Positions 975 to 6,962 of a stretch of DNA of 6,962 bases are shown here, one piece after another (the stretch's first letter is position 1; each line of letters starts with the position of its first letter). The DNA lies in NCBI GenBank assembly GCA_017476085.1, contig JAFVEJ010000158.1, forward strand, positions 1-6,962, in the 5' to 3' direction. Made by a program: the position numbers and the translations under genes. Origin of the DNA: Alphaproteobacteria bacterium. GTDB lineage: Bacteria > Pseudomonadota > Alphaproteobacteria > RF32 > CAG-977. The notes under the pieces were generated by a model. That model was not told the DNA's origin and searched no databases. It saw only the letters and a program-made list of their open reading frames with translations.

Positions 975-2240
975 TTATTTTACTTTCCGCCCATCGCTGT
1001 AAACGGCGACGATATCGCGTTTCGTCATCAGGTAAAGCGCGCGTTCGAAACGTTCCCTGACAGTCAGCTTTTTAGCGGGCATCGGAAAAGCTGAATCATC
1101 AACGACAACGGCATGCAGGCTGTCGCCTTCGGCAAAGCCGCCTTTCGCGCCGAAGAACTTCGCCCCCGCGGCCGTGCCGAGGTAAAACGCCTCTGCCACC
1201 GTTAAAAAGTCTTCCGTCCAATCCGTCTGAATCCGTTTCATTTTGGACGCGCGGATAGCCGAAGTTACGACTTGCGGCATCGCCAGCAACGCCCCGCCCG
1301 CTATGTCCGAACCGAGCGTTACGCGCACGCCTTCGTTCATCATTTTGCGCACGGGCGCAACGCCGCTGACCAAATTGATGTTGGAATCGGGACAATGCGC
1401 GACCCAGACGCCGTTTTCCTTCATCGCGTTGCGTTCGCGTTCGTCGGAATGGACACAGTGCGCCATCACGGTACGTTCGTTGAACAGGCCGTATTTTGCA
1501 TAACTCTCCCAATATTGGGCGCAATCGGGATGAAGCTCTTTAACCCAGGCAATTTCCGACGTGTTTTCGGACAAATGCGACTGAACGGGCAAATTTCTTT
1601 CCTGCGCCAACCTGCCTAAGAAAGCCATCAGTTCGTTCGTGCAGGTCGGCGTAAAGCGCGGCGTCAAAATCGGTTTGACATGTTCGAATTTATCCGAAGC
1701 CTCGTCCAGCCAGGCCTCTGTTTCGCGCATGGATTCTTCCGTCGTTTCGGTCAGCACGTCGCCGGAATTGCGGTCCATATTCACTTTGCCGACAAAGCCG
1801 GTCATTCCCGCGTTTTCAAATTCTTCCATCAAAATCATCGTGGATTCTCGGTGCAGAGAGGAAAAGGCGCAAACGCGCGTCGTGCCATTGTCGATCATTT
1901 CTTTGGCCAGAGCGCGATAGACTTCGCGGGCATAGGCCGTATCCCTGAATTTCGCTTCCGTTTTAAAGGTGTATGTGTTCAGCCAGTCCAACAACGGCAA
2001 ATCCATTCCCATTCCCAGCATCGCGTATTGCGGCGCGTGCATGTGCATATCGGCAAAGGACGGCATTACCAGTTTGTCCGCATAATCCGTTTAAGGAGCA
2101 TTGCGGTACGTTTCCGGCTATTCGGAAAAGACTCCTTCAATTTTGCCATTATTCAGCACCAGATATCCGTTTTCCGTAATATTCAGCTTGCCGAAAGCGG
2201 GCGCGTCAACGATATGTCCTTTGATGATCTGAACGGTCAT
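975..2240 (-). pseudogene. guaD: Guanine deaminase (amidohydrolase) interrupted by two in-frame stops near the N-terminus
   Basis: The enzyme hydrolyses guanine to xanthine and ammonia in cytosolic purine catabolism or salvage. The full frame from the ATG at 2240-2238 would give 421 residues, close to the family's usual 420-450, with a ribosome binding site AAAGGA at 2253-2248. Codon 41 is TAG (2120-2118) and codon 50 is TAA (2093-2091). Sequence on both sides is typical of the family in one frame: ENGYLVLNNGKIEGVFSE before, PETYRNAP between, and TDYADKLVMPSFADMHMHAPQ after. Metal and substrate residues are all present in full-length numbering: H66 and H68 (HxH), Q71, R195, H222 and E225 (HLSE), H261 (MAHCVH) and D312 (GSD). 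The uninterrupted part, 975-2066, starts at an internal ATG without a good ribosome binding site and lacks the N-terminal beta segment. The gene is preceded by its own promoter, purine riboswitch and terminator. Identity is strong; whether it is functional is uncertain. Confidence 0.9.
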
Positions 2241-2264
2241 ACTTTTTTCCTTTCTGTCAGACAT

Positions 2265-2305
2265 AAAAAAAGGCTTAAAACACCGCGTTAAACGGCGCTT
2301 CAAGC
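2265..2305 (-). terminator. Intrinsic terminator of the purine riboswitch expression platform
   Basis: On the minus strand a 13-bp stem pairs 2305-2293 (GCTTGAAGCGCCG) with 2285-2273 (CGGTGTTTTAAGC), including three G-T wobbles, around a 7-base loop (TTTAACG). After one C, a run of seven T follows at 2271-2265. It lies between the aptamer and the guaD ribosome binding site, so it would stop transcription before guaD when formed. The 5' arm starts one base after the P1 3' strand, so P1 and this terminator can coexist. Confidence 0.85.
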
Positions 2306-2306
2306 A

Positions 2307-2369
2307 CTCATAGCAGAACACGTTCCTGTTCAGTAGAAACTTCCTCCGGCGTCAGAGGAATTATATGAG
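2307..2369 (-). ncRNA. Guanine-class purine riboswitch aptamer upstream of guaD (variant loop-loop pairing)
   Basis: Minus-strand layout: P1 CTCATA (2369-2364) pairs with TATGAG (2312-2307). J1/2 is TAAT. P2 is TCCTCT (2359-2354) with GGAGGA (2347-2342) around L2 GACGCC (2353-2348). J2/3 is the hallmark GTTTCTAC (2340-2333). P3 is GAACA (2331-2327) with TGTTC (2320-2316) around L3 GGAACG (2326-2321). The base before the P1 3' strand, equivalent to xpt position 74, is C (2313), which specifies guanine over adenine in this class. T51 of J2/3 is kept, so the 2'-deoxyguanosine-I signature is absent. Departures: the L2-L3 G-C pairs appear with strands exchanged, the A73 equivalent is G, and the C54-G72 pair is T/T. 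The position before guanine deaminase supports the call independently of the motif. Confidence 0.88.
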
Positions 2370-2380
2370 CCGTTTTTGAT

Positions 2381-2409
2381 TCTATAAGGATTCCTGCCGG
2401 AAATGTCAA
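2381..2409 (-). promoter_or_regulatory. Sigma-70-type promoter for the riboswitch-guaD transcript
   Basis: On the minus strand a perfect -35 box TTGACA (2409-2404) is separated by exactly 17 bases from TATAGA (2386-2381), a 4/6 match to the -10 consensus. The predicted start, near 2374, is only a few bases upstream of the P1 5' strand at 2369. That is where a riboswitch transcript should begin. Confidence 0.75.
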
Positions 2410-5709: not shown

Positions 5710-5738
5710 ATCGCCGGAAACGCATCGTTTTCGGTGAT
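5710..5738 (+). other. 13-bp intergenic hairpin between the small protein and outer-membrane protein genes
   Basis: ATCGCCGGAAACG (5710-5722) pairs with CGTTTTCGGTGAT (5726-5738) around the loop CAT, with two G-T wobbles. No T-run follows, so it is not a standard intrinsic terminator. It sits 31 bases before the downstream ATG and about 20 bases after the upstream stop. It could act in mRNA processing or stability, or as part of a leader structure. Confidence 0.6.
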
Positions 5739-5769
5739 TGGTGTTATCCGTAAACAAAAGGAAAAATTT

Positions 5770-6962
5770 ATGAAAAATCAAAAAACGGCGGCATTGACCG
5801 CTTTGGCCGTGTTGTCCTGCCCGTTTTATGCGCAGGCGACGGAACAGGAATTATTAAATCGCATCAACCTGTTGGAAAACAGAATCAAAACTTTGGAAAC
5901 AAATCAAGCCCAACCCTCTTCAAAGGGAAGCGGACTAAGCGCTTTCAATCCGTATATCAGCGTCGTTTTGAACGGCGCGTACACGCATTATTCCCGTGAT
6001 GAAAAAGACATTCCAGGCTTTCAGGTCGGCGAAGAAGGCGAGTTTTCGGACAAAGGCTTCGGTCTGGGGGAATCTGAAATTATGATCGGGGCGAACGTTG
6101 ACGATAAATTTTCGGCGAACCTGACCGCCGCGATCGTCAGTGAAGACGGAGAAGACAAAATCGAATTGGAGTAGGCTTTTGTTCAATCCATCGGTTTGCC
6201 TTACGGAATCAGTTTCACGTTCGGCCGCTTAAAACCCGTTTTCGGCTATCTGAACGAAAAACACGCCCACACGGACGATTTCGCGGACAGACCGCTTCCG
6301 TACCGCGTGTTTCTGAACAATGCCTATAAAGATGACGGCGCGCAGGTGTCCGTTGTTCTGCCAACGGATTTCTATGCGGAAATCGGCGGCGGCGCGTATC
6401 GGGGCGGCTTTTTCCCCGCAGCGTACGAAGGTTCCGGCATCGGCGCGGCAAACGGCTATTTGCGCTTCGGCGGCGACATAACCGACAATCAGTCCTGGTT
6501 GGCGGGTGTTTCTTATCTTTATGCCAAAAGCAAAGACGCCGAACGACAAACGGAAGCTTTGACCTTTGACGGCAAAGATCATCTTTATGCCGCGTCTTTA
6601 AAATATTCCTACGCGCCGAACGGCAACAACAAACAAAGCGAATTCGTTCTTTCAGGCGAATATATGTTCCGCAACGAAAAGGGAGAATACGACGACAGAA
6701 ACGGTTCCGCCGGAGATTTTGACAGCAAGACTTCCGGTTGGTACGCGCAAAGCACGTTTAAATTCCTGACGAATTGGAAAATCGGTTACCGCTATGCGCA
6801 GATGAAACCGAAAAAAACGCCGGCGGCTTTGAATAACACTGTTTTAAATGCGGAACACCATAAACCGGAAATGCACTCGATAATGGCGGAATGGGACAAT
6901 TCCGAATTTTCGCGCATACGACTGCAGTACAATCGCGATAAGACCGGCTTTAAAAACGACAA
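5770..6962 (+). pseudogene. Outer-membrane beta-barrel protein (zinc-regulated receptor/porin-like), in-frame TAG, 3' end beyond window
   Basis: The ATG at 5770 has AAAAGGA at 5756-5762, seven bases upstream. A signal peptide (MKNQKTAALTALAVLSCPFYAQA) probably ends near residue 23. A short coiled-coil-like segment follows (TEQELLNRINLLENRIKTLETNQ, about 24-46), as in porin-type proteins anchored at the cell wall. The rest alternates beta strands rich in aromatic and Gly residues. Codon 135 is TAG (6172-6174) in KIELE-stop-AFVQSIGLPYG. The same frame then stays open for 262 codons to the window edge, with family-like blocks such as FGYLNEKHAHTDDFADRPLPYR and NNAYKDDGAQ. Proteins with these blocks are, from memory, annotated as zinc-regulated TonB-dependent outer-membrane receptors, although no TonB box or plug domain is visible here, so a porin-like barrel is equally possible. 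GAG or CAG to TAG would be a single change. The uninterrupted N-terminal piece is 5770-6174. Confidence 0.78.

Follow-up and report, generated by a model that had tools for sequence, protein, structure and literature searches.

The minus strand of the window (the whole 6,962-nucleotide stretch of DNA that was analysed) carries at 2370-2306 a purine-type aptamer fold, a P1-P2-P3 three-way junction by Rfam alignment and folding, which immediately precedes a guanine deaminase (guaD) frame, with a promoter on one side and an intrinsic terminator on the other. With little better than even confidence, we read this element as a divergent guanine-type purine riboswitch that would control guaD transcription and whose loops L2 and L3 would dock through changed base pairs. 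That a natural lineage has swapped the "universally conserved" kissing pairs for other Watson-Crick pairs, with the guanine pocket retained, is a wider claim that we put forward only tentatively.

Studies of RNA tertiary folding use the L2-L3 dock as a standard model, and the available text of PMC5480868 reports that its base quadruples tolerate mutation less well than the rest of the loops. A natural family whose dock letters differ while its pocket is intact would reveal the requirements of the dock. If the wider claim is true, docking would depend on complementarity and not on the G-C quadruples, and a G at position 73 together with an open 54/72 may serve to offset the change in the dock. 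The uncultured bacterium and its close relatives would offer a natural test of how the loop lock may change, and the element places a guanine-type riboswitch in an Alphaproteobacteria lineage, before guaD, under the Rfam annotation score.

Identity, features and distribution of the element

The cmscan search showed a match to RF00167 (Rfam Purine) over the whole model length at 2388-2291 of the minus strand, with 33.0 bits and an E value of 0.026 for 6962 bases against 4227 families, or about 6e-6 after division by the number of families. As this score lies under the gathering score of 37 bits, routine annotation would miss the element. All eight copies stay below it, the seven relatives scoring 26.9 (L004, the lowest) to 35.7 bits. 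By folding energy alone, the window element is unexceptional (z of -1.92, 13 of 200 shuffles being equally good), and five folded relatives gave z values of -2.25 to -0.29, with G004 and G005 at -0.29 and -0.42. The helices P1, P2 and P3 are paired in 91 to 100% of the alignment cells of the eight copies and, since the core is kept in seven relatives, the element is no chance find.

The first-pass annotation had proposed a guanine-class purine riboswitch before guaD and scoring with the Rfam covariance model. The full-length alignment to RF00167, the guaD-type frame next to it and the core kept in 8/8 copies bear this identification out, and the coordinates given for L2, L3, 54, 72, 73 and J2/3 are all exact on the minus strand. 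The features are listed below, with position numbers in the B. subtilis xpt scheme.

2404..2409, minus strand: -35 box TTGACA, read from the sequence; TTGACA or TTGACT in 8/8 leaders
2381..2386, minus strand: -10 box TATAGA, 17-nt spacer; TATAGA in 4/8 and TATAAA in 4/8 leaders
2364..2370, minus strand: P1 5' strand GCUCAUA (A21 and below), from the Rfam alignment
2354..2360, minus strand: P2 5' strand UUCCUCU, from the Rfam alignment and fold
2348..2353, minus strand: L2 GACGCC, with CC = 37, 38 (2349, 2348), from the sequence and leader comparison
2341..2347, minus strand: P2 3' strand GGAGGAA, from the Rfam alignment and fold
2333..2340, minus strand: J2/3 GUUUCUAC, which holds pocket letters U47 and U51; identical in 7/8
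2332, minus strand: position 54 (U), opposite U72; U in 7/8, G in G001
2327..2331, minus strand: P3 5' strand GAACA, from the Rfam alignment and fold
2321..2326, minus strand: L3 GGAACG, with GG = 60, 61 (2326, 2325), from the sequence and leader comparison
2316..2320, minus strand: P3 3' strand UGUUC, from the Rfam alignment and fold
2313..2315, minus strand: U72, G73 (2314) and C74 (2313); UGC in 8/8, C74 being the expected Watson-Crick partner of guanine
2306..2312, minus strand: P1 3' strand UAUGAGU, from the Rfam alignment
2273..2305, minus strand: intrinsic terminator hairpin of 14 pairs, adjoining P1, from the terminator scan and fold
2265..2271, minus strand: U-tract of 7 T, from the terminator scan; a U-tract in 7/8 leaders, not in G009
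2249..2254, minus strand: Shine-Dalgarno-like GAAAGG, read from the sequence
975..2240, minus strand: guaD frame, ATG at 2240; stop-free stretch 2066-975

A scan of genome contigs yielded six guaD loci (L001 to L006). Five of them (L001 to L005) carry the element, all in MAGs titled Alphaproteobacteria or Rhodospirillales and two from the rumen according to their titles; at the L006 guaD locus none was seen. The covariance model R1, built from the window and the L001 to L005 copies, matched in 7 of the 12 genomes of G002's family with 80.6 to 100 bits, each time upstream of guaD, including two genomes absent from its building set (G008, 93.1 bits, and G009, 80.6 bits). A search at order level returned the same 12 genomes. 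Aligning the homologous guaD leaders, as had been proposed, gave seven related leaders with the same aptamer core, identical to the window in J1/2 and J3/1 and almost so in J2/3: the latter reads GUCUCUAC in G005 and GUUUCUAC in the other seven of the eight copies. The guaD gene is present in 10 of the 12 family genomes; in three of these (G011, G012 and G013), within 1,500 bases of guaD, there was no RF00167 match up to E = 3, and R1 reached at best 12.2 bits without filters.

Strong R1 matches lay inside G002's family alone, in 4 of 385 class genomes and 1 of 388 phylum genomes sampled. These wide searches were strictly filtered, and the RF00167 search of the class gave 3 of 385 genomes (G003, G009 and the unrelated G118) and missed the element-bearing G002, so that absence elsewhere is soft. 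Ten weak R1 matches (16.8 to 24.9 bits) were set aside as chance matches, the six of them that were inspected by eye showing no purine core; among these six, L019, L020 and L021 are one nearly identical stretch. RF00167 was found in 0 of 282 genomes from the phylum of G006 and gave no match at E up to 1 in plasmid sequences, and no convincing purine aptamer was seen by pattern scans, script and eye among the matches listed for viral contigs. The G118 match, L292, is a purine riboswitch that clears the cut-off with 58.6 bits; the frame after it has a formylglycinamide ribonucleotide amidotransferase linker domain (purL-like), and G118 is the sole genome sampled of its order.

The proposed contact between loops L2 and L3

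On the minus strand L2 does end in CC and L3 does begin with GG, as annotated. With a loop register that numbers L2 backwards and L3 forwards from J2/3, pairing being unused, CC (37, 38) and GG (60, 61) occur in four of the eight copies (window, G001, G002 and G008). The other four (G003, G004, G005 and G009) form a sister sub-group with an L3 of AAGUCCG, GAGUCCG or similar and an L2 that varies in length and letters, and exhibit neither CC/GG nor GG/CC at the fixed positions. GG/CC stands at these positions in none of the eight family copies. The comparison set comprised 14 RF00167 matches in 10 of 398 phylum genomes, of which 13 parsed and L037 did not; GG and CC are present in 13/13 of these riboswitches of other Pseudomonadota, by eye in five at the fixed positions and in eight base-shifted. 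Seven of the set (L033 to L036 and L039 to L041) have the kissing CC of L3 one base later and, by eye, an apparent 7-pair P3 with a 5-nt loop. The six-nucleotide loops described at first hold for the window if U31.G39 closes L2, and are not constant in the relatives: the L2 of G008 counts 7 nt, and G001 and the sister sub-group have a differing L3. The window lacks the usual U34, A65 and A66 of the loops.

Positions 37 and 61 are pairable in 7/8 copies (C-G in four, U-A in three) and positions 38 and 60 in 5/8 (C-G in four, U-A in one). In alignment A2 the kissing register pairs in 12 of 16 cells (75%). Slides of one to three columns gave 12.5 to 50% (2 to 8 of 16 cells for slides down to -3 and up to +1, 25% of 12 for +2 and 27.3% of 11 for +3), the kissing register being the best. 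In 500 shuffles of A2 the observed value was reached 6 times for the paired share, 13 times for cells changed on both sides and twice for covariation, measures that overstate the support because the family sequences are kin. Pairs changed on both sides, as high in 139 of 500 shuffles, and pair types, in 498 of 500, gave no support. When the columns of L3 were shuffled in a way that keeps kinship, a fraction of 0.13 of 5000 trials placed the match of the CC/GG sub-group exactly where it stands; a conserved two-pair stack of some kind, wherever it lay, came up in 0.675 of 400 trials for one sub-group and in 0.715 for the other.

The double compensatory change that the first-pass annotation saw here is thus conserved as CC/GG in 4/8 copies, but as CC/GG never varies within its sub-group it may be a single event. 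In the GuaD tree, where the row of G003 has only 111 aa, G012 with G013 is the single fork with support, and the two loop sub-groups are not told apart. As to covariation between the loops, the other expectation voiced at the outset, 37-61 has C-G and U-A pairs in the family and G-C in other purine riboswitches; 38-60 pairs in 5/8 only.

The alternative that survives best is a guanine riboswitch in which loop docking has dispensed with these two Watson-Crick pairs, and we consider it substantial though short of even. The loops would have drifted, with CC/GG coincidental in one sub-group, or the sister sub-group would dock by a shifted GG/CC, and the junction, a weaker dock or Mg2+ would keep the pocket in place. 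In its favour, both loop positions pair in none of the four sister copies, and conserved stacks arise as readily under shuffling as described above, the exact-place match less so. Moreover, ligand binding to the add aptamer draws P2 and P3 close to each other even when a loop is mutated, as the available text of PMC8191784 states; the same text describes docking as disabled in an L2 mutant that includes both kissing G to C changes.

The sister sub-group also has one P2 position unpaired in 4/4 copies, which makes its loop register unsure, and the only conserved Watson-Crick stack found there by the scan joins the GG of the P2 3' strand with the CC of L3, again in 4/4. If P2 had only four pairs in these copies, this GG/CC could be ordinary pairing in a shifted register, the register in which cmscan aligned G009. 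The absence of the canonical GG/CC from homologous leaders, on which the first reading of the loops depended, stands for the fixed positions (0/8), and a shifted-register GG/CC is possible in the four sister leaders. Two observations speak against such a loss of the docking pairs: of the slides from -3 to +3 none pairs as well as the canonical position, and four copies hold CC and GG constant, with varying middles in both loops.

Docking through the changed pairs is for the window sub-group the better reading of the sequence comparison, with moderate and not decisive support, since it draws on few events, one of the chance controls (0.13) is weak and the sister sub-group may have a shifted GG/CC. 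In this sub-group, complementarity suggests that L2 and L3 would still dock by C37-G61 and C38-G60, and most of the sister sub-group would have U37-A61 at the kissing position.

Ligand pocket, expression platform and guaD frame

The ligand-contact letters U22, U47, U51 and C74 are kept in 8/8 copies. By analogy with solved purine riboswitch structures, guanine would be held by C74, U51, U47 and U22. Position 73 is G in 8/8 copies, and 54/72 is U/U in 7/8 and G/U in G001. The G at 2314, the T/T at 2332/2315 and the intact J2/3 and C74 reported by the first-pass annotation were thus all confirmed on the sequence. Among the 13 parsed matches of other Pseudomonadota, A73 and a paired 54-72 (C-G or U-G) occur together in 12; they do so in 0/8 family copies. 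The exception, L038 of genome G611, has G73 and an A54/C72 mismatch with ordinary loops. G73 and the open 54/72 are lineage features. A tie between them and the loop exchange was ruled out, G73 being present in both loop sub-groups and in L038, and the latter, with its junction change and ordinary loops, shows that junction and loop changes are separable. In the mechanism that we propose, G73 and the open 54/72 would lie above the ligand in place of A73 and the closing P3 pair, and probably concern stability and not ligand choice. U34, G37, G38, C60, C61 and A65 are among the letters named universally conserved in PMC3764141, and A73 is not among the examples named in the available part of that text.

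Considering this junction, membership of the guanine-II arrangement, or convergence on it, is an alternative that we regard as unlikely. An open 54/72 would give J2/3 and J3/1 one more base each, with U22, U51 and C74 staying, and the window junction can be drawn in this way from the text description in PMC9295807. There, guanine-II is described as having a one-nucleotide J2-3 insertion and keeping most other xanthine-II changes, including the J3-1 insertion, together with U22, U51 and C74. In guanine-II structures the crossing pairs that are usual at the junction are missing, according to the available text of PMC13374515. The like combination of G73 and an open 54/72 in L038 also fits; the retention of a G.U at 54/72 in G001 and the origin of the published variants from Firmicutes, where guanine-II is most often found before phosphoribosyltransferase genes (text of PMC9295807), do not.

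Still less probable is a ligand other than guanine, be it xanthine, hypoxanthine or a guanine nucleoside. The first-pass annotation had taken the altered junction as a possible sign of a shifted ligand preference, and second-shell changes at 73 and 54/72, a catabolic regulated gene and the existence of variants of the purine fold with other ligands (described in the text of PMC9295807) would agree with it. These changes are lineage-wide, however, and also found in L038, and the contact letters, intact in 8/8, predict guanine, the expected substrate of the regulated enzyme. The adenine-riboswitch U74 is absent (C74 in 8/8), as is the U51G change of xanthine-II (U51 in 8/8), and this claim was not upheld.

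By eye, 8/8 leaders have TTGAC[AT] and TATA[GA]A with a spacer of 17 nt between them; a promoter pattern scan that demands T at the last -10 position reported none. As the -35 and -10 boxes stand just upstream, the transcript would start a few bases before P1 and fold as P1-P2-P3. The terminator stretch 2306-2263 has -20.0 kcal/mol with a z of -5.25, and the terminators of five folded relatives gave z values of -5.98 to -1.90, G003 being the weakest with 9 of 200 shuffles equal. The leader of G009 (L017/L048) has the aptamer without a U-tract after it, so its expression platform differs.

In the proposed mechanism, the ligand would steady P1 and so decide the formation of the adjoining terminator. 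The logic of guanine inducing its own deaminase favours an ON switch. In folding models of the full-length leaders of the window sub-group, P1 and terminator coexist, with a P1 probability of 0.96 to 0.97. In partial transcripts ending 16 to 20 nt past P1, the P1 probability is 0.07 to 0.5 in the window, G002, G008, G003 and G009, and at least 0.75 in G001, G004 and G005. The competing pairs in the window join J2/3 and the 5' end to the 5' arm of the terminator, which leans towards OFF; the full terminators of G004 and G005 extend into P1 (P1 of 0.61 and 0.26), which leans towards ON. On these models and the gene logic, we give the ON type a slightly better than even chance. A P1-extending helix of the 5' leader with the terminator 5' arm (UCAA/UUGA and similar) was rejected, because the transcript is taken to begin only downstream of it.

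The guaD frame matches Amidohydro_1 and, among solved structures, PDB 2i9u and guanine deaminases; the guanine deaminase model TIGR02967 gave 343.4 bits against a cut-off of 375.4, scored on the shortened stop-free frame. Its first 58 codons (2240-2067, minus strand) contain one in-frame TAG and one in-frame TAA, which may reflect a pseudogene or an assembly error; the guaD matches in the relatives have no internal stop. Recoding was ruled out, as TAA, TAG and TGA each terminate other frames of the window. A second frame, 5734-6960 of the plus strand, is cut by a TAG at 6172-6174 and continues in the same frame (listed from 6196), and neither piece matches a Pfam family. That the window copy is a decaying remnant, as the two stops in guaD and the other stop-cut frame might suggest, is improbable, since its promoter, aptamer core and terminator are preserved as well as in relatives with a stop-free guaD and the stops may be an assembly error.

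Comparison with known purine riboswitches

The element resembles the guanine-I riboswitches of RF00167 in its three-way junction, in J1/2 UAUAA and J2/3 GUUUCUAC, in U22, U47, U51 and C74 and in a terminator adjoining the aptamer. It differs in its score (33.0 bits for a gathering score of 37), in an L2 with CC and an L3 with GG in place of GG and CC, in 6-nt loops, and, in the window, in G73 for A73 and U54/U72 for the closing pair, as well as in its alphaproteobacterial host and its place before guaD. By the text description of guanine-II, C74, U51 and U22 are kept in both and, if 54/72 is open, the extra J2/3 base and the longer J3/1 would be shared; the window differs in its Alphaproteobacteria origin and position before guaD, as against Firmicutes and mostly phosphoribosyltransferase genes.

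Among the matches listed for open-licence PMC papers, chiefly from searches on subjects other than the loop-loop contact, no description of a natural CC/GG exchange was found, and none paired a guanine riboswitch with guanine deaminase. L038, the second purine riboswitch of its genome (1501-1598, minus strand), precedes a Na+-dependent nucleoside transporter gene and is possibly another variant. It is like the window element in G73, the unpaired 54/72 and C74, and unlike it in its ordinary loops, with L2 ending in AUAUGG and an L3 of CCAAUAA. The xpt mutant G37A/C61U, which binds hypoxanthine only with enough Mg2+ according to the available text of PMC5480868, likewise has changed yet complementary bases at 37 and 61, but it is laboratory-made and changes one pair.
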